From positions 1 to 64,000 of the forward strand of contig NZ_QKTW01000015.1 of the NCBI RefSeq assembly GCF_003236175.1: 64,000 nt of DNA, given 5' to 3'. The notes beneath the pieces were generated by a model. It was not told the DNA's origin. It saw only the letters and a program-made list of their open reading frames with translations, and did not search any database. The translations under genes and the position numbers were made by a program. Origin of the DNA: Taibaiella soli (GTDB lineage: Bacteria; Bacteroidota; Bacteroidia; Chitinophagales; Chitinophagaceae). Shown piece by piece: positions 8,363 to 16,964 of this stretch (positions are counted from its first letter, which is position 1; every line of letters starts with the position of its first letter).

Positions 8363-9874
8363 TTATTGCAACATTTTGTCTGTAGGGTCCTGAACGAGCA
8401 GCTGGGAAGAATCCGGCAGTAACTGGTATTGAGTTCCTAATGCTTTATTCATTACAGTCCGAACAGCATTGACGCTGGTGATCGAATCATATAAAGCGCG
8501 GTAATCCTGGTCAGGAAAATAAATAGCATTGAGATTGGCACAACGCAAAGGCGAGTTAAGTGTCAGGTTGTTGTTCCGATAGCCATGATCGCCAAGGACA
8601 ACGATAATAGCATTACTCTTTTTGCAGTTCTGAATAGCTTTTACCACTTCAAACATTTTTCTGCTGGCATATTGCAGATTGTAGGTGTAAAACTCGGGCA
8701 CACTGTGATCTGATACATAAAGCGCGGAATCAGCACTTAACAGCCGGCCATTTTTATTAAAATAAAATGGCTCATGCGGTGTATAAAAATGTACATAGTA
8801 AAACGAAGGCCTTGATGCCTTTACCGCTGCATCTGCAATCAAATCCTTTGCCAGCTGCTCATTATACCGGTAAGATTGAAAATAATGAACCCCGGGAGCA
8901 AAATGCAACTTGCCCCCTTTTGTACTTAGCCGATATCTCCGCAAAACCACATCGTAAAATGTGTTTTCTGTGAGCAGCGAAATATTATATGGAAAAAACT
9001 CAGCTTGTGAATATTGCAGCGCATGCCCGTCTTTCATATCAAACATAGAGTAGTTACGAATCTGATAACCGTGCTCAGTGAAAACATCCTGCAGACGGTT
9101 GTTATAAATCCGAACGAAACTCTCATGGAGATTGGGTACGCCCACAGCCCTTCTGGCGTTCGTTACAGGAAAATAAGAGGTATTCAGTAATGATGCCGTA
9201 GAATACAAAGTAAGATCATAATTGCTGCGACTATTGGTCTGAACAGAAAATCCATGCTGCTTCAGAAAACTGTCGACATAACTGTTGTCATAGTTTAACG
9301 CTTGCTGCAATCCCCTCGTTCCCATGTATTCGTCGAAAACAATCAAATAAACATCCGGCTTTGTGGTCACCGTATTTAGAGACGTGTTATTAACCAACGA
9401 AGAAAGCTTGTCCTCTTTTTTAGGATCTGAGCTTCGTTTTATGATGAGTCCGACCTCGAACAATAAATAAACAATAAACAGCAGGTTGAGAAAATAAACG
9501 GTCCGTTGCTGCTTTTTTTCCTCTAGCCGATTAAAAATCAGTGAAATAAGAACGATTACTGCAAGTGCTGCCGCCATCGCGAGGAACAGTTTTCCTGAAA
9601 AATGTTCCTCGGTTCTTATAAAAAACCCTTGCCATGCACTCCAGAAATAAAAAAATGCACTGGCAGACAAACATAAGACCGCTGCTTTTTTCCTTGATCC
9701 GAGTAATGCCTGGGTAATTGCAAACACAACAAAGGTTATCAGCAGATAAACACAAGTCATCTCCAGTGCTGCATCCCATTTTACATAACCCCAATATCTC
9801 CTATATAACCGAATGACATAGAATATCGGCACCAGAAAAATGAAAATTGATCTCGTTTTAATAATTTGCGGCAT
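8363..9874 (-). CDS. Membrane-anchored sulfatase-fold (alkaline phosphatase superfamily) protein, paralogue A
   Basis: A 503-aa protein with about five N-terminal membrane helices (residues 1-150) and an extracytoplasmic sulfatase-like domain. Superfamily metal and catalytic features are VYLIVFDEY (D181/E182), SRSNYDLTLYSTASLLN (T222 is the likely nucleophile), a HxxTPHEPFYF-type segment and VVLGDHGYR. The layout resembles phosphoethanolamine/phosphoglycerol transferases (EptA/LtaS type), which move head groups between lipids and glycans. Substrate is unknown. The protein is clearly paralogous to the one at 11639-13111. It is divergent from the 56-aa gene/methyltransferase pair, so the intervening 84 bp must contain both promoters. 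Confidence 0.8.
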   Translation of the reverse strand: MPQIIKTRSIFIFLVPIFYVIRLYRRYWGYVKWDAALEMTCVYLLITFVVFAITQALLGSRKKAAVLCLSASAFFYFWSAWQGFFIRTEEHFSGKLFLAMAAALAVIVLISLIFNRLEEKKQQRTVYFLNLLFIVYLLFEVGLIIKRSSDPKKEDKLSSLVNNTSLNTVTTKPDVYLIVFDEYMGTRGLQQALNYDNSYVDSFLKQHGFSVQTNSRSNYDLTLYSTASLLNTSYFPVTNARRAVGVPNLHESFVRIYNNRLQDVFTEHGYQIRNYSMFDMKDGHALQYSQAEFFPYNISLLTENTFYDVVLRRYRLSTKGGKLHFAPGVHYFQSYRYNEQLAKDLIADAAVKASRPSFYYVHFYTPHEPFYFNKNGRLLSADSALYVSDHSVPEFYTYNLQYASRKMFEVVKAIQNCKKSNAIIVVLGDHGYRNNNLTLNSPLRCANLNAIYFPDQDYRALYDSITSVNAVRTVMNKALGTQYQLLPDSSQLLVQDPTDKMLQ

Positions 9875-9958: not shown

Positions 9959-10129
9959 ATGAGCGTTCAGTTATTATATATCGATCCGGGAAGCGGCAGT
10001 ATGCTGTTGCAATTTATCATTGGCGCCTGCCTTGGTGTCGTTTTCTTTTTTAAGACTATTGTTTACAGGATCAAATCAATTTTCCGCAAGGAAAAGAATG
10101 ATACAGACACCACTTCTGAATCAAAATGA
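9959..10129 (+). CDS. Small single-pass membrane protein, 56 aa
   Basis: An ATG-to-TGA frame too short for most gene finders. It encodes MSVQLLYIDPGSGSMLLQ, then a hydrophobic segment (about residues 14-33) and a basic tail (YRIKSIFRKEKND). The YIDPGSGS start before the membrane helix looks conserved in kind. Its TGA overlaps the ATG of the methyltransferase gene (ATGA, 4 nt), so the two are translationally coupled and likely form a functional unit. Function is unknown; a scaffold or anchor for the methyltransferase at the membrane is a guess. Confidence 0.75.
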   Translation: MSVQLLYIDPGSGSMLLQFIIGACLGVVFFFKTIVYRIKSIFRKEKNDTDTTSESK

Positions 10130-11508
10130 CTGCAATAACCCGCCACCCTGCTTCTTACCGTGATCCTTCGGGATTTGTGTTTCGTCATTTTGGAGACATT
10201 TACCGCATGGTTAATATTTCGTACAAAGAGGATTACGACCTGCTGATGCAATCTGGTCTTTATACTTCATTGGCCGAAAAGAAAATAATGTTGTCGCACA
10301 CCGATGTAACTGCACAATTTTCTTTAGCGCCAAATGCCTATAAAGTAATCCAGCCAGAAGCAGTTCCTTTCTGGACGTATCCTTATGAATGGAGTTTTGA
10401 ACAGCTGAAACAGGCGGCGTTACTCACATTGCAGTTGAATAAACTGGCGCTGGCGCAAAATATGATTCTGAAAGATGCCACCGCTTATAATATTCAATTT
10501 GTAGCAGGCAAACCGATTCTGATCGACAGTCTTTCTTTTGAAAAATACACAGAAGGTGCTCCGTGGAAGGCTTTTCGCCAGTTCTGCACCCATTTTGTTT
10601 ATCCGCTTTTGCTGCAAAGCAAAGTGGAAGGTCTGAACCCGGCTATCTTTAGCCAATACCCGGACGGCATTTCCGCGAAGCTAACGGCTTCTTTATTGCC
10701 AAAGTCTTCTAAATATAATCTCAACAATTGGCTCTATCTCTATCTGCCGGCCAAACTAGAAGGCAAACAAGACGATTCAGCCAAACAACGTAGCATTTCC
10801 GTTTCGAAAACGAAAATCCTGCAAAACATGGAACAGCTTTCCGGCTTTATTCAAAAGATGAAACCGCCGGTGGTACATTCCAACTGGAATCATTACTACA
10901 GCGAAACAATTCTTAGTCAGGAATATCTTCAGTTTAAGGAACAGACCGTTGCGCAATGGCTGAAAGAAAAATCGCCCAAAACCACAGTAGACGTAGGTTG
11001 TAACACAGGCGTATTCAGTTTTATTGCTTCACAAAACAGCGGGCAGGTTGTTTCATTGGATACTGATCCATACAGCATTGACCTGCTTTTTTTAATGGCA
11101 CAAAAAGAGGGCGTAAAAAACCTGACAACTTTTGTAGGTGATATCTGTAACCCAGCTGCGGCGTTTGGCTGGAATAATGCGGAGCAAAGTGCGCTGCTAA
11201 GTCGCCTGAAAGGTGATATGGTTTTATCTCTGGCATTAATTCATCACCTGGCGCTGACGAAAAACGTACCACTTGAGATGATTCTGGAAACATTCGCCAA
11301 TATCAGCACGCAATACGTGATCATGGAATTTGTTCCCAAGTCTGATCCGCGTTCGCAAACATTGCTGCAAAACAAAACGGATATTTTTCCGTCTTACACA
11401 CAGGCAGATTTTGAAACTGTGGCGCAACAGTTTTTCACTATTGAAAAACAAACGCCAATGCAGGGAAGTGAGCGGGTACTTTATCTGCTTAAAAAAGGCC
11501 ACCTCTAA
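10126..11508 (+). CDS. Class I SAM-dependent methyltransferase (NoeA-like)
   Basis: A 460-aa soluble protein. The N-terminal half has DPSGFVFRHFGDIYRMVN and a stretch LILIDSLSFEKY-like (about residues 135-150). The C-terminal half is a Rossmann methyltransferase with motif I VDVGCNTGVFSF (about 288-299), an acidic post-I end (SLDTDP) and motif IV-like LSLALIHHLAL. This two-part plan resembles NoeA-type nodulation methyltransferases (from memory, moderate confidence). Coupling to the 56-aa membrane peptide and flanking sulfatase-fold paralogues suggests methylation of an envelope glycan or lipid head group (inference). Confidence 0.8.
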   Translation: MTAITRHPASYRDPSGFVFRHFGDIYRMVNISYKEDYDLLMQSGLYTSLAEKKIMLSHTDVTAQFSLAPNAYKVIQPEAVPFWTYPYEWSFEQLKQAALLTLQLNKLALAQNMILKDATAYNIQFVAGKPILIDSLSFEKYTEGAPWKAFRQFCTHFVYPLLLQSKVEGLNPAIFSQYPDGISAKLTASLLPKSSKYNLNNWLYLYLPAKLEGKQDDSAKQRSISVSKTKILQNMEQLSGFIQKMKPPVVHSNWNHYYSETILSQEYLQFKEQTVAQWLKEKSPKTTVDVGCNTGVFSFIASQNSGQVVSLDTDPYSIDLLFLMAQKEGVKNLTTFVGDICNPAAAFGWNNAEQSALLSRLKGDMVLSLALIHHLALTKNVPLEMILETFANISTQYVIMEFVPKSDPRSQTLLQNKTDIFPSYTQADFETVAQQFFTIEKQTPMQGSERVLYLLKKGHL

Positions 11509-11638: not shown

Positions 11639-13111
11639 TCATTTCACGTCATTGAGCTCTGACGTACTATCCGGGAGCATCTGATAATTGGTGCCCAATA
11701 CTTTGTTCATGATTACCCTTAAAACATTCACATTAGAAATACTGTCGTAAAGCGACTGATAATTTTTATCCGGGAAGTAAACAGCATTCAGGTTTCTGAA
11801 CTTGGCGGCGAGATTTACAGTATCATAAGGCACACGATAGCCATGGTCGCTCAACAATAAAATGGCGGCGTTATGATCATAATGCAAAATGGAATCTACC
11901 AGCATTTTCATCTTCAGATTCGCATGTGCAACATTGTATAAATAATGCTGTGTACGATTGTGAAAAAAGCCATATTCCACGCTGTCGGGTGTGTATAAAT
12001 TCCCATTTGGACCGTAATAAAACGGCGGATGCGGCATAGTGAGATGACAATAGACAAATACAGGTTTTTGCTTCGGCTCTTTTGCCTGCTCCATAACCCG
12101 ATCCATCATTTTATTATTGTAGGTATTTGTACGATAGACCGCTTCGTCCGATTTCAGATGCAGCATCTGCAAATAATCTTTTACAAAAAGATCGTACAAA
12201 GTGTTTGCGGTAATAATTTCCGTTCCGCTCAATAAAAACTCATTCTGGCTCAATGCCGGCATATTGCCCACATCGAAATAAGAGCAATTATTAAACAGAT
12301 AATCTTGCTGCACAAACGTCTTCACTACGCTGCTCTCTTTAATGTTTTTTATCGCCTGCTTATAATCCGCCGGGCGCACCGCTTTCGGATTAACGCCCGT
12401 GAGATAATTCGCGTTCAGAATCGAAGCCATTGAGAAGAATGTCTGCGGATAATTGGAACGGCTATGCTCCTGAATGGAAAAATTATGCGCACGCAAAAAG
12501 CTGTCGGTCGCTGCATTGTCAAATCCATAGTCTTCACGAAGCGATTTACTGCCTGCATATTCATCAAACAAAATGAAATAAACATTCCAATGTGTGGCAG
12601 CGGTTGTATTTGCCGATGTGGACTCCTGTCCGGCAACTACTTTTCGGTGATTAAAACTTTTACCGGTGATAACAGAAATATCGACCAGCAGATAAATCAC
12701 AAAGAGCAGATTGAGATAGAAAACAAACTGTTGTTGCGTCTTGTCCCCGAGTTTTTTGAAAAGAAAATATCCAGCAATAATTGCAATGGTCCAGATCGCA
12801 AAAACGACCGGAATTTTGGAAAAGAAACCATCTGGAAATTGAGCTTTTGCCAGTCCTAATGTATCGCCCCAATAAAGCTGCAATAACAATATTAAAAAAC
12901 AAAGAACCGCAGCACTCATCCTGTCTTTTGCAAACAGCCTGATGACGCGATATAACACTGCCGCTACCGCTAAATAAATCACGGAGAGCTGCAACACATC
13001 CTTTACACCCACTAACCCGAAATAATGTTGCCAGCCGTGTATCACAAAAAACAACGGCAACAGGAATGGAAATAATTTCCATTGCTTCAGTATGGCTTGC
13101 GGTGCAGGCAT
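11639..13111 (-). CDS. Membrane-anchored sulfatase-fold protein, paralogue B
   Basis: A 490-aa homologue of the product of 8363-9874 with the same plan: about five membrane helices (1-150), then VYFILFDEY (D183/E184), SRSNYPQTFFSMASILN (T224 candidate nucleophile), HLTMPHPPFYYG and LLLSDHGYR. The divergence between paralogues is large, so this is not a recent duplication. It is convergent with the methyltransferase gene and ends 131 bp from it. A head-group transferase or hydrolase acting outside the inner membrane is likely; the substrate cannot be named. Confidence 0.8.
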   Translation of the reverse strand: MPAPQAILKQWKLFPFLLPLFFVIHGWQHYFGLVGVKDVLQLSVIYLAVAAVLYRVIRLFAKDRMSAAVLCFLILLLQLYWGDTLGLAKAQFPDGFFSKIPVVFAIWTIAIIAGYFLFKKLGDKTQQQFVFYLNLLFVIYLLVDISVITGKSFNHRKVVAGQESTSANTTAATHWNVYFILFDEYAGSKSLREDYGFDNAATDSFLRAHNFSIQEHSRSNYPQTFFSMASILNANYLTGVNPKAVRPADYKQAIKNIKESSVVKTFVQQDYLFNNCSYFDVGNMPALSQNEFLLSGTEIITANTLYDLFVKDYLQMLHLKSDEAVYRTNTYNNKMMDRVMEQAKEPKQKPVFVYCHLTMPHPPFYYGPNGNLYTPDSVEYGFFHNRTQHYLYNVAHANLKMKMLVDSILHYDHNAAILLLSDHGYRVPYDTVNLAAKFRNLNAVYFPDKNYQSLYDSISNVNVLRVIMNKVLGTNYQMLPDSTSELNDVK

Positions 13112-13163
13112 CAGGTAAAGATAATTGAGTTTATTGCTATTTTACGGCAGACATCACTCGCTT

Positions 13164-13586
13164 ATGAAAAATTGGATCTTACTCTTGCTGATTTGTTTTG
13201 CTGTTCCTGCATTTGCGCAAAACAGCAACGAACAACAAATTCTTACGATGCTGGATGCACAGGTGAAAGAATGGAACAAAGGGAATATCGCCGGTTATAT
13301 GCACGGCTACTGGGAAAATGACAGCCTGCTTTTTATTGGCAGTAACGGACCGCGCTACGGCTATACAACCACGCTGAAACGGTACCAGCAAGCCTATCCC
13401 GACAAAGCACACATGGGCACATTGACATCTACGATTACCAGCATGAAGCAACTTTCTCCGGAATATTATTTCATTGTAGGCAAATGGGCCCTGAAACGAA
13501 GCGCTGGCAACGTTTCCGGCAGCTACACGTTGTTATTGCGCAAAATAAACGATGTTTGGGTAATTGTTTGTGACCATAGTTCGTAA
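13164..13586 (+). CDS. Exported SnoaL/DUF4440-like protein
   Basis: A 140-aa protein with a signal peptide (MKNWILLLLICFAVPAFA, cleavage before QNS) and an NTF2-fold domain of DUF4440/SnoaL type. Visible landmarks are MLDAQVKEWNKGNIAGYM, a GPRYGY segment and the C-terminal LLLRKINDVWVIVCDHSS typical of that family. The ATG at 13164 is preferred over an upstream in-frame start because it puts the signal peptide first. Such proteins bind small ligands or act as simple isomerases or cyclases; the role here is unknown. It is 19 bp from the Lgt-like gene and probably begins that operon. Confidence 0.75.
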   Translation: MKNWILLLLICFAVPAFAQNSNEQQILTMLDAQVKEWNKGNIAGYMHGYWENDSLLFIGSNGPRYGYTTTLKRYQQAYPDKAHMGTLTSTITSMKQLSPEYYFIVGKWALKRSAGNVSGSYTLLLRKINDVWVIVCDHSS

Positions 13587-13605: not shown

Positions 13606-14376
13606 GTGGTATTTCCCTATAGCGTACATATCGGACAACAAATCATCAGGCTGCATGGAGTTTTCGAATTCCTGGGCATTTTTATTGCATTCCGTTACTA
13701 CCTGTTTTTGCGTCGCCGGAAAGGTGATACGATCAATACGGAAAACAGACTTTTTATTGTAATCGGAGCCACGTTTGGTGCAGTTATTGGTTCGCATCTA
13801 TTAGGTGCTCTGGAAAATATTCCGGAATGGATGGCAGCTACCAGCAAATGGCAATATCTCTATGGCAATAAAACATTGGTCGGTGGCGTACTTGGCGGAT
13901 TATTCGGCGTTGAATCTGTAAAACTTTTAGTTGGCGAAAAACAGCGCAGCGGCGACCTTTTTGTTTTCCCATTGTTGCTGGGAATGATTATTGGCAGAGT
14001 CGGTTGTTTTAGCGCGGGCATTTACGAAGAAACGTACGGACTACCTTCAAAACTGCCATGGGCAATGGATCTGGGCGATGGTATCCTGCGACATCCCGTA
14101 GCTTTGTATGAAATTGTATTTCTGATTTTACTTTGGACTTCACTGTCTGTTTTGAATAAAAAAGAAAAACTGGATTCAGGTGCATTGTTCAAACTTTTCA
14201 TGATCGGCTACCTGCTATTCCGTTTCCTGCTAGATTTTATAAAACCAGGCTGGCGTTACTGCCTTGGCCTCGGATCTATACAACTGGCCTGCCTTGCAGG
14301 ACTTATTTATTATGGCCGTTATTTATTACGCCCCGCACTTTTACTGAAGAAAAAAGAATTGTCTTATGCCGGTTAG
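13606..14376 (+). CDS. Lgt-family membrane protein (prolipoprotein diacylglyceryl transferase paralogue)
   Basis: A 256-aa polytopic membrane protein (about seven helices) of the Lgt superfamily. The signature is present in altered form: GRVGCFSAGIYEETYGLP, then LPWAMDLGDGILRHPVALYE. The early part (FPYSVHIGQQIIRLHGVFEF) matches an Lgt N-terminus. Canonical Lgt moves diacylglycerol from phosphatidylglycerol to lipoprotein cysteines. This one lacks the usual GRIGNFINGE form and is coupled to a radical SAM gene, so another lipid acceptor is likely. It starts at GTG; the nearby ATG at 13599 is out of frame and soon stops. Its 3' end overlaps the radical SAM gene by 11 nt. Confidence 0.75.
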   Translation: MVFPYSVHIGQQIIRLHGVFEFLGIFIAFRYYLFLRRRKGDTINTENRLFIVIGATFGAVIGSHLLGALENIPEWMAATSKWQYLYGNKTLVGGVLGGLFGVESVKLLVGEKQRSGDLFVFPLLLGMIIGRVGCFSAGIYEETYGLPSKLPWAMDLGDGILRHPVALYEIVFLILLWTSLSVLNKKEKLDSGALFKLFMIGYLLFRFLLDFIKPGWRYCLGLGSIQLACLAGLIYYGRYLLRPALLLKKKELSYAG

Positions 14377-15772
14377 AAAATACACCTATTACGATTACAC
14401 CATCAGCCTTTGTCCGGAATGCCTGAAGCGCATTGAAGCGAAGATTGTGTTTGAAGACAACAAAGTGTACATGCTGAAAACCTGCCCGGATCACGGGTTT
14501 CACAAAACACTCATTGCAACAGATGTAGCGTATTACAAAAACATCCGCAATTATAACAAACCTTCGGAAACGCCATTGCGCTTCAATACGAAAACACACT
14601 ACGGCTGTCCATACGACTGCGGACTTTGTACCGATCATGAACAACACAGTTGTTTAACATTAGTTGAAATCACAGATCGCTGCAATCTGTCCTGCCCTAC
14701 TTGTTACGCAATGTCTTCGCCGCATTACGGACGTCATCGTACGTTAGAAGAAGTAGAACAGATGCTAAAAATCATTGTGGCCAACGAAGGCGAACCAGAT
14801 GTGGTGCAAATCAGTGGCGGCGAGCCAACAATTCATCCGCAGTTCTTCGAAATATTAGACATCGCCAAACGCCTGCCCATCAAGCATCTAATGGTAAATA
14901 CAAATGGCATTCGGATTGCGCAGGATCCTGGCTTTGCAGAACGACTGGCGACGTATATGCCCGACTTTGAGATCTATCTTCAGTTTGATTCTTTCAAGCC
15001 GGAAGTATTAACGGCATTGCGCGGAAAAGATCTTTCAGACATCCGTTATAAAGCGCTGGAAAAACTCAATGAACTCAATCTTTCTACCACGCTCGTAGTG
15101 ACGATGCAGAAAGGCATGAATGATGACGAGGCCGGAAAAATCATAGAGTATGCGCTGAAGCAGCGTTGTGTTCGTGGTGTTACTTTTCAGCCAGTGCAGA
15201 TTGCTGGCCGATTTGAACATGAAAACGAAGAAAAAAACCGACTAACGCTTACGGAAGTGCGCGATAATATTCTATCCCAGACTTCGATCTTTCAGCCAAA
15301 CGATATCATTCCTGTGCCTTGCAACCCTGATGCGCTCGCAATGGGCTACGCGCTGAAATTAAATGGCAATATAGTTCCGCTGACGCGCTACATTGATCCG
15401 GCTTATCTGCTGGACAATTCGAAGAATACAATTGTGTACGAACAAGACACGGTCTTGCACGATCATCTGATCAATATTTTCAGCACAGGTATTTCGGTAG
15501 ATAAAGTGACCGAGAATATGCACCAGCTGTTGTGTTGTCTGCCTCAAATTTATGCCCCGGGCCTTTCTTACGAAAATTTATTCCGAGTTATCATTATGCG
15601 CTTTATTGACGCCTATGATTTTGATGTGCGGGCCATCAAAAAATCCTGTGTGCACATTGTGAGCAAAGACGGGAGAATCATTCCGTTTGAAACCATGAAT
15701 CTGTTTTACCGCGATGACAAAGAAACTTACCTCAACGATCTTAAATCACGCTACGATAAAATTCAATTTTGA
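14366..15772 (+). CDS. Radical SAM enzyme resembling tetraether lipid synthase (Tes/MJ0619-like)
   Basis: A 468-aa enzyme. The radical SAM cluster motif is C106-x3-C110-x2-C113, followed by the SAM-binding SGGEPT. An N-terminal C16-x2-C19 with C40-P-x-H-G looks rubredoxin-like, and C81-x3-C85-x2-C88 with C96 offers another Fe-S site. The C-terminus has SCVHIVSKDGRIIPFETMN. This arrangement matches what is known of archaeal Tes, which couples two lipid chains by a C-C bond, and of bacterial homologues. Placement after an Lgt-like gene and before four membrane proteins supports a membrane lipid substrate (inference). MoaA-like peptide or cofactor chemistry is the alternative. Confidence 0.8.
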   Translation: MPVRKYTYYDYTISLCPECLKRIEAKIVFEDNKVYMLKTCPDHGFHKTLIATDVAYYKNIRNYNKPSETPLRFNTKTHYGCPYDCGLCTDHEQHSCLTLVEITDRCNLSCPTCYAMSSPHYGRHRTLEEVEQMLKIIVANEGEPDVVQISGGEPTIHPQFFEILDIAKRLPIKHLMVNTNGIRIAQDPGFAERLATYMPDFEIYLQFDSFKPEVLTALRGKDLSDIRYKALEKLNELNLSTTLVVTMQKGMNDDEAGKIIEYALKQRCVRGVTFQPVQIAGRFEHENEEKNRLTLTEVRDNILSQTSIFQPNDIIPVPCNPDALAMGYALKLNGNIVPLTRYIDPAYLLDNSKNTIVYEQDTVLHDHLINIFSTGISVDKVTENMHQLLCCLPQIYAPGLSYENLFRVIIMRFIDAYDFDVRAIKKSCVHIVSKDGRIIPFETMNLFYRDDKETYLNDLKSRYDKIQF

Positions 15773-16044
15773 AAAAGCCATTCTTAATAATCGCAGGAAT
15801 TAATCTGGGCATCACTTTGCTGGCTCTTTTTTCTATCCTCCACGATAGCAATTTCAATGCCGCATTTGGCATCGTCATACTGCTTATCGGTGCATTCAAT
15901 GGCGTGGTTGGCGTGCTGCTATGCCTTATCGGCATGGCGGAAAAAGCAGTCATGAAATATGGGCTGGCGATGCTGGCAATTTCAGGTATCTATTTACTAT
16001 CCGGTTTTACACTATGTAGTCAAACCAAAATTTCCGTAAATTGA
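15769..16044 (+). CDS. Small three-helix membrane protein, family copy 1
   Basis: A 91-aa hydrophobic protein with three membrane helices (about 4-24, 31-57, 65-84) ending in LLSGFTLCS. Initiation appears to be at TTG, overlapping the radical SAM stop (TTGA, 4 nt), which argues for coupled translation. It shares with the next three genes a pattern of helix, polar turn, G-LLIGAFN-like helix, charged turn, YG, and a final helix ending in a Cys-containing motif. Function is unknown. Confidence 0.7.
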   Translation: MKKPFLIIAGINLGITLLALFSILHDSNFNAAFGIVILLIGAFNGVVGVLLCLIGMAEKAVMKYGLAMLAISGIYLLSGFTLCSQTKISVN

Positions 16045-16060
16045 TAGGAACATTCTGCGT

Positions 16061-16354
16061 ATGAAACCCGAGATGAAGAGAACTTTTATCGTCAATGCAG
16101 CCCTCGCCGGAATCATACTATTGTTTAGTCTGTTTTCGTCAAATGGCGGTCGCAATGATATCACCATAGCAATGGGAATTGGACTGCTGTTGCTGGCGCT
16201 GCTCAATATTTTTGCGGGTGTGGTGACTTTACTTGCCGCCATTGCTGATTCCAAAGGCCCCGCCAAACATTACGGCAGCGCTATGCTAATGGTCGCCGGC
16301 ATTCTTCTACTTTGTAGCCTCACTTTTTGCAGTACCTCATCTTTTAGTATGTAA
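16061..16354 (+). CDS. Small three-helix membrane protein, family copy 2
   Basis: A 97-aa paralogue of the preceding protein. Shared features are the GLLLLALLNIFAGV helix, a KHYGSAML turn and the ending LLCSLTFCS with two cysteines. It lies 16 nt after copy 1. No enzyme motif is seen. Confidence 0.7.
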   Translation: MKPEMKRTFIVNAALAGIILLFSLFSSNGGRNDITIAMGIGLLLLALLNIFAGVVTLLAAIADSKGPAKHYGSAMLMVAGILLLCSLTFCSTSSFSM

Positions 16355-16368
16355 AGGCTATTCTTCGA

Positions 16369-16662
16369 ATGAAAAAAGAGTTAAAAAGAATCGCAGCTTA
16401 CGACGCAGTTGTTTTTTCGCTGGCACTCATACTTGCCCTGATCCTGCATATCGGTAGCGGCAAAGAACTTATGGCGTTTCTGGGATTAGGATTTTTACTG
16501 GTTGCTTTTGTCAATACCAGCATCGGAATTATTTTTCTTCTGGTCAGTTTTATCAATAAAAACATTGCCGTTCGCCGCTATGGCGCGTGCATGTTGCTAT
16601 TGGCAGGCATTGCCCTGCTTTGTGGATTTTCCTTTTGTAGCGTAGCGCATATTCGTCTCTAA
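16369..16662 (+). CDS. Small three-helix membrane protein, family copy 3
   Basis: A 97-aa paralogue with GFLLVAFVNTSIGI, RRYGACML and the ending LLCGFSFCS, the clearest form of the Cys-x5-Cys motif. It lies 14 nt after copy 2. Function is unknown. Confidence 0.7.
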   Translation: MKKELKRIAAYDAVVFSLALILALILHIGSGKELMAFLGLGFLLVAFVNTSIGIIFLLVSFINKNIAVRRYGACMLLLAGIALLCGFSFCSVAHIRL

Positions 16663-16676
16663 ACCCCATTCTCTCC

Positions 16677-16964
16677 ATGAATAAAGCTTTCGGAATTGTC
16701 TTGTTCATCAGTCTGGCCATCATTGCCATTGTAATGACCTGGGCAATGATCATGTTTCCCGGTCAGAATGATTCCATTGCAATTGCTTTTGGGGCTGCTA
16801 CATTTGGGGCTGGCGTATTAAACCTTCTTTCAGGAATTATTCTTTTACTGATTAGCATTCGCAGAAAACCTTTGCGATATTATACTTACGCCTCGTTTAT
16901 TCTTGCGCTAATGATGCTGCTTTGCGGCTTTTTAGTGATTTGGAAGGTTGCAGCGCAGCATTAG
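16677..16964 (+). CDS. Small three-helix membrane protein, family copy 4
   Basis: A 95-aa, more diverged paralogue: GAGVLNLLSGIILL, RYYTYASF and the ending LLCGFLVIW, where the second cysteine is lost. It is 14 nt after copy 3 and ends the operon. The loss of one cysteine may mark a distinct role within a hetero-oligomer (inference). Confidence 0.65.
   Translation: MNKAFGIVLFISLAIIAIVMTWAMIMFPGQNDSIAIAFGAATFGAGVLNLLSGIILLLISIRRKPLRYYTYASFILALMMLLCGFLVIWKVAAQH

Follow-up and report, generated by a model that had tools for sequence, protein, structure and literature searches.

The closest described counterparts of the system reported here are Lgt, Tes, TrsS, DAG-RiPPs, and Mss with Ger. The prolipoprotein diacylglyceryl transferase Lgt uses phosphatidylglycerol as the donor of a diacylglyceryl group, which it attaches to a cysteine on the outer side of the inner membrane; in the Escherichia coli enzyme, R143, R239, and H103 are essential, and the HGGL region has been proposed to bind the acceptor peptide (PMC4728403). 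The tetraether synthase Tes (GDGT-MAS, MJ0619), a radical S-adenosylmethionine (SAM) enzyme, binds phosphatidic acid and acts by removing hydrogen at the very end of an acyl chain (PMC9433317). In diacylglycerol-modified ribosomally synthesized and post-translationally modified peptides (DAG-RiPPs, DybA/ChrH-type), a small precursor is modified by a multinuclear non-heme iron-dependent oxidative (MNIO) enzyme and lipidated via a canonical N-terminal lipobox by the housekeeping Lgt/LspA/Lnt machinery (PMC12636315), and the membrane-spanning lipid synthase Mss, with Ger, has been proposed to join acyl-chain ends in bacteria (PMC13274423). Here, we describe an operon of Taibaiella soli, a Bacteroidota member with a 5.4 Mb genome, that encodes, next to an Lgt paralogue, four small membrane proteins and a radical SAM enzyme belonging to the Tes/TrsS superfamily. 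It occupies positions 13606–16964 of the window, i.e., the whole 64,000-nucleotide stretch of contig NZ_QKTW01000015.1 that was analyzed. The trio of Lgt paralogue, Tes/TrsS-superfamily enzyme, and one to four small proteins ending in a cysteine travels together in Bacteroidota and reappears in Actinomycetota.

Conservation of the trio in Bacteroidota and Actinomycetota

All open reading frames (ORFs) of the operon, and their overlaps and gaps, were found as given in a preliminary description made from the sequence alone, which had recognized six genes forming one tight unit. The Lgt-like gene overlaps the radical SAM gene by 11 nt, the TGA stop of the latter overlaps the TTG start of the first small-protein gene (TTGA coupling), and the successive small-protein genes are separated by 16, 14, and 14 nt. 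A scan in which each species was represented by one genome yielded at least 557 radical SAM relatives, and 87 loci were examined. An Lgt-like gene was located near the radical SAM gene and on the same strand in 85 of these 87 loci, with an overlap of most often 8, 11, or 29 nt. The identity of the radical SAM enzyme across loci was 65–86%, and the closest genes among the matches listed came from loci named Flavipsychrobacter, Taibaiella, and Chitinophagaceae. The arrangement recurs in loci throughout the phylum and is hence far beyond chance.

We complemented the neighborhood survey by an analysis of 392 genomes sampled evenly over the Bacteroidota phylum (thresholds: E ≤ 1e-120 for the radical SAM enzyme and E ≤ 1e-46 for the Lgt-like protein). 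The Lgt-like protein was present in 31/31 genomes with the enzyme and the enzyme in 31/32 genomes with the Lgt-like protein (Fisher p = 3.6e-45, a value inflated by related genomes). Survey and co-occurrence thus bear out the pairing, together with small proteins, on which the preliminary description had built its functional proposal, and show it to be far stronger than was apparent from the sequence alone. In one genome (G091), enzyme, Lgt-like protein, and a cysteine-ending small protein are located on three contigs, the first two in mid-contig positions, and all three are kept; in another (G322), the genes for the enzyme and the Lgt-like protein are unlinked, and a small protein, found by eye, is encoded beside the enzyme (L182, 5475–5804). 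This co-retention of the trio without synteny argues for a joint function. Two search profiles detected no small protein in genomes G031 and G122; as the same profiles also missed the protein at L182 5475–5804, these blanks carry little weight. Viral contigs returned weak core matches only, so phages do not carry the system in the collection searched.

More distant versions differ in composition. Two phylum-level relatives carry a five-gene version (L184, 5486–9088; L185, 3435–6941) with an added methyltransferase of the ICMT/PEMT type and a DUF4395 protein that bears a C-terminal GxCC motif; in this version, the Lgt-like protein has the sequence GCCYG, and the small protein ends in FGAC or FGSC. 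In Actinomycetota, plasmids of Mycobacterium avium (L198, 2817–6542) and M. branderi (L206, 3352–6545) harbor an Lgt-family gene, genes for two small transmembrane (TM) proteins, and a radical SAM gene in a row, and a Nonomuraea replicon (L201, 3129–6506) harbors genes for a small protein, an Lgt-like protein, and a radical SAM enzyme. The actinobacterial small proteins share G-x-C-T-G-[LI]-N-P near the C-terminus, and the annotation of these loci, where there is any, names hypothetical, Lgt-family, and radical SAM proteins only. A phylogenetic tree supported the Bacteroidota enzymes with 100/100 and placed the actinobacterial enzymes in a separate clade, with several deeper branches long or unresolved. 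The association of Lgt with cysteine-bearing proteins is therefore seen in no fewer than two divergent clades of the enzyme. In TrsS-like relatives from Mycolicibacterium and haloarchaea (L196, L197, and L200), by contrast, the gene that follows encodes a methyltransferase, and there is no Lgt gene.

The radical SAM enzyme and the Lgt paralogue

The radical SAM enzyme (468 aa; 14366–15772, forward strand) matched the crystallized tetraether synthase GDGT-MAS (PDB 7tol) with E = 2.8e-68 in phmmer and 2e-77 in a profile search. An AlphaFold model of moderate quality (predicted local distance difference test (pLDDT) 70, predicted template modeling score (pTM) 0.76) aligned to 7tom over its full length with a template modeling score (TM-score) of 0.79, whereas the next structures matched the core only (TM-score 0.36). 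Among curated families, the enzyme scored best against TrsS (NF045646; 338 bits, cut-off 490), followed by Tes (NF045702) with 299 bits at a cut-off of 450; being below both cut-offs, it is a member of neither family. Family search, 7tol match, and fold place it in the Tes-like lineage and outside the peptide-maturase and MoaA families, and neither a SPASM nor an RRE domain reached its cut-off in Pfam and NCBIfam scans. The kinship with Tes that had been proposed is thus substantiated at the level of the lineage, while an assignment as a Tes proper would be at odds with the score.

The three cysteine sites noticed in the preliminary description proved to be laid out as in Tes. They comprise a rubredoxin-like CX2CX20CX2H site (C16/C19/C40/H43), an N-terminal CX3CX2C cluster (C81/C85/C88, with H91 or H94), and the radical SAM CX3CX2C cluster (C106/C110/C113), all invariant in 35 homologues and with spacings identical to those given in the Tes structure paper for the corresponding clusters (PMC9433317). 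The C-terminal part departs from Tes. Met439, named as a ligand of the Tes C-terminal [Fe4S4]C cluster, and Tyr459 are completely conserved in 1,000 archaeal Tes homologues (PMC9433317); the equivalent of Met439 is kept as M411, whereas the equivalent of Tyr459 is I431, an invariant Ile among the homologues. Of the four Tes cysteines that are candidates in this region, C456 is kept as C428, and C438, C455, and C470 are replaced by I410, S427, and E442. These equivalences allow for the tag of the PDB chain, which shifts the numbering by 20 residues, and agree with the published Met439 and Tyr459. Relative to Tes, the homologues have gained the invariant C319, C390, and C391, which, judged from the sequence, could serve as alternative ligands of a C-terminal cluster. 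C319, within PxPC, and C428 are common to the TrsS-like relatives; in contrast to these, the operon contains no methyltransferase gene and has an Lgt-like gene instead. The enzyme further differs from Tes in its partners, i.e., the Lgt paralogue and the small cysteine-bearing proteins. A bona fide Tes is present in another Bacteroidota-phylum genome (G122; L186, 6864–8321; 494 bits, above the cut-off). As it lacks an Lgt-like partner, this Tes and the operon enzyme are different things. The L186 enzyme is a possible source of bacterial membrane-spanning lipids.

The first gene of the operon (13606–14376, forward strand) starts with GTG and encodes a protein of 256 aa that was assigned to the Lgt family by its Pfam match, its model, and a profile alignment to 5azb. 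It scored 73.9 bits against PF01790 (cut-off 24.9) and 36.5 bits against TIGR00544, the housekeeping equivalog, where it remained below the cut-off of 118.9, as it did for equivalogs in general. The model is confident (pLDDT 93), and its sole significant PDB match was E. coli Lgt (5azb; E = 5e-8, TM-score 0.56). For R143, R239, E202, and Y235 of the E. coli enzyme, the paralogue has the invariant equivalents R131, R206, E169, and Y202, and the catalytic pair R131 and R206 was invariant in 33 Lgt-like homologues. Unlike in E. coli Lgt, the position of H103 is occupied by V92; N146 is replaced by C134. A second, separate locus of the same genome (G000:C23) encodes a protein with a higher PF01790 score, which is the housekeeping Lgt. 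Its signature GRFGCHFAGDGDWG includes GRFGC, and it carries FYGGL, i.e., a Tyr at the H103 position. The preliminary description had taken GRVGC as an altered signature of the operon protein. While the homology to Lgt holds, the exchange of Asn146 for Cys is not distinctive, and GRVGC is ruled out as a diagnostic signature by its counterpart in the housekeeping enzyme. The paralogue is set apart by its genomic context and by the change in the HGGL region.

Small membrane proteins with an outward-facing cysteine

The four genes at the 3′ end of the operon, all on the forward strand, encode small proteins with three TM helices. Small proteins 1 (91 aa; 15769–16044), 2 (97 aa; 16061–16354), and 3 (97 aa; 16369–16662) end in ...LSGFTLCSQTKISVN, ...LCSLTFCSTSSFSM, and ...LCGFSFCSVAHIRL, respectively, and are candidate acceptors, whereas small protein 4 (95 aa; 16677–16964; ...LCGFLVIWKVAAQH) has no Cys at the motif position. 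With 27–34% identity to the first copy, they are paralogues, in agreement with what had been noted before; no Pfam family exceeded its cut-off for any of them, and no copies beyond these four were found in the T. soli genome. Across loci, the small proteins have two to four predicted TM helices, occur in one to four copies, and are very divergent. Their single constant, which the preliminary description had missed, is a Cys located where the last helix ends on the outer side. Its context is G-[FLG]-[SG]-[IVT]-C-[SGT], whose columns were anchored on the G..C pattern and are hence biased towards G. Counted without this pattern, 101/115 operon-adjacent small TM proteins have a Cys within eight residues of the end of the last TM helix. 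In a stricter window, 94/115 adjacent proteins have one, compared to 1/22 small TM ORFs further away. In the class with two TM helices, P23, G31, G58, and C60 are the sole invariant residues.

The mean net charge was +2.65 in the loop preceding the last TM helix and +0.24 in the tail, and controls showed the reverse. Because this positive loop precedes the last helix, the Cys faces outward in proteins with two, three, and four helices alike. It is thus the last TM helix, and not the N-terminus, that has the layout of a prolipoprotein, i.e., a positive n-region, a hydrophobic helix, and a Cys at the outer face. Small residues are found at position −2 in 89/101 and at position −1 in 9/101 of the Cys-bearing proteins.

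Proposed function and alternative readings

From this association and topology we infer a three-component system, in which the small proteins would be the lipid acceptors of the Lgt paralogue and Tes-like chemistry would act on the lipid chains; we assign this reading a probability of roughly 40%. The last helix of the small protein would extend from the positive cytoplasmic loop to the outer-face Cys and thereby imitate a prolipoprotein signal, and the Lgt paralogue, with its active site on the same side, would move a diacylglyceryl-type group from phosphatidylglycerol to this Cys. The residue preceding the Cys, mostly Ile, Val, or Thr, would be ill-suited to signal peptidase II, and for this reason the small protein would stay polytopic. 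Less certain is the part of the radical SAM enzyme, which might abstract a hydrogen atom at an acyl-chain end, as Tes does, and thereby join or otherwise modify chains, either those of the donor lipid or those carried by the protein after lipidation. The product would be a small membrane protein anchored by an unusual lipid, possibly one with joined chains. Since the paralogue has the Lgt catalytic core and almost always occurs together with outward-Cys small proteins, it is presumably their dedicated transferase, and since a full-length Tes relative is encoded in the same operon, this enzyme may act on the lipid chains of donor or product, though less surely so, given its departures from Tes at Tyr459 and in the residues of the C-terminal cluster. 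A more far-reaching version would amount to a class of protein lipidation not described before. In it, the dedicated Lgt paralogue would diacylglycerylate a Cys that lies outside a lipobox, where a TM helix of the polytopic protein ends, and the Tes-like enzyme would join the acyl chains, e.g., to a lipid from the other leaflet, to form a covalently membrane-spanning protein anchor; this seems unlikely to us. Unlike the N-terminal signal used with Lgt, the proposed acceptor is a helix at the C-terminus of a polytopic protein; a housekeeping Lgt is encoded in the genome as well.

Several observations weigh against this reading. The canonical lipobox [LVI][ASTVI][GAS]C was found in 0/101 Cys-bearing small proteins, a count that rules out canonical lipoprotein processing. 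Copies lacking the Cys, like the fourth one here, exist, typically next to Cys-bearing ones. The paralogue lacks the equivalent of H103. In the radical SAM enzyme, Ile431 and the altered C-terminal cysteines mean that Tes chemistry may not be retained. Furthermore, the superfamily is not uniformly lipid-joining, because TrsS-like relatives pair with a methyltransferase. Finally, an Lgt-like paralogue in G031 (L179, 6653–7498) stands alone, accompanied neither by the radical SAM enzyme nor by any small protein that could be detected, and is maybe a remnant.

The preliminary description had suggested that the operon makes or modifies an unusual membrane lipid, with the small proteins holding the substrate in the bilayer. 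A corresponding system for free lipids, in which the radical SAM enzyme joins or alters phospholipid acyl chains, the Lgt-like protein alters the head group, and the small proteins are accessory subunits, would be in line with the full-length Tes homology, the binding of ordinary phosphatidic acid by Tes (PMC9433317), and the use of phosphatidylglycerol by Lgt (PMC4728403). We nevertheless consider it unlikely, as the enzyme is not a Tes, the bona fide Tes of the same phylum has no Lgt-like partner, and the near-invariant outward Cys is left unexplained. Small proteins that merely hold a substrate would account neither for this Cys, nor for an enzyme of the Cys-acceptor type, nor for one to four divergent copies; they are probably substrates, not helpers. 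No protein with DUF2229, which we take to be the marker domain of Ger/PlsA-type ester reductases, was found in the T. soli genome by a search that was positive in four control genomes, among them that of Thermotoga maritima. A tetraether made by a Ger-type route is therefore unlikely, and the operon also differs in this respect from Mss with Ger, with which, compared by description, it has the proposed joining of acyl-chain ends in common.

Alternatively, the radical SAM enzyme could alter the small protein itself, e.g., by a C–S or C–C bond near the Cys, with the Lgt paralogue then lipidating or only recognizing this membrane-embedded, RiPP-like protein. The small proteins do resemble precursors, with one to four divergent tandem copies and one conserved motif, and Lgt-lipidated RiPP precursors are known in Bacteroidota (PMC12636315). 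With these DAG-RiPPs, the operon would share a small genome-encoded precursor, modification by a cytoplasmic metalloenzyme, and lipidation of a Cys. However, fold and family of the enzyme are those of Tes/TrsS, peptide-modifying radical SAM enzymes match the core only (TM-score about 0.36), and the SPASM and RRE domains are missing from the scans; the Cys, moreover, is located at the outer-face end of a helix, whereas radical SAM enzymes are cytoplasmic. Overall, this makes a modified peptide an improbable outcome. More doubtful still is a redox or metal site formed by the conserved Cys, with the small proteins as subunits of a membrane complex and the Lgt-like protein in a structural or lipid-binding role. 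It would fit the usually single conserved Cys per small protein, the missing H103 equivalent, and the DUF4395 and ICMT/PEMT-type proteins added in some distant loci; yet the catalytic Arg pair of Lgt and its neighbors are kept as invariant columns, and the small proteins have no other conserved metal ligands.

Regarding the surroundings of the operon, related membrane proteins are encoded at 8363–9874 and 11639–13111 of the window (both reverse strand), the latter with a Pfam Sulfatase match above the cut-off, on either side of a methyltransferase-like gene (460 aa; 10126–11508, forward strand). The methyltransferase-like gene, the genes for these sulfatase-fold proteins, and the gene 3′ of the operon were rejected as members of the system, since none of them accompanies the operon at other loci. 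A DUF4440 gene (13125–13586, forward strand) lies just upstream; its homologues accompany the operon, on its other side, only in four of the closest relatives (L039, L041, L042, and L044), and it is possibly a lineage-specific passenger.

The families involved are known, and their combination appears to be undescribed in the searchable literature: a literature search, with most subscription journals outside its reach, found no description of the pairing of Lgt with a radical SAM enzyme. Many bacterial Tes homologues are without an assigned role (Lloyd et al., PMC9433317), and one clade of them now gains a precise set of genetic partners and a candidate protein substrate. If the proposed function is true, lipoprotein biology would no longer end with the N-terminal lipobox and would be connected with radical chemistry on lipids in bacteria that are common in the environment.

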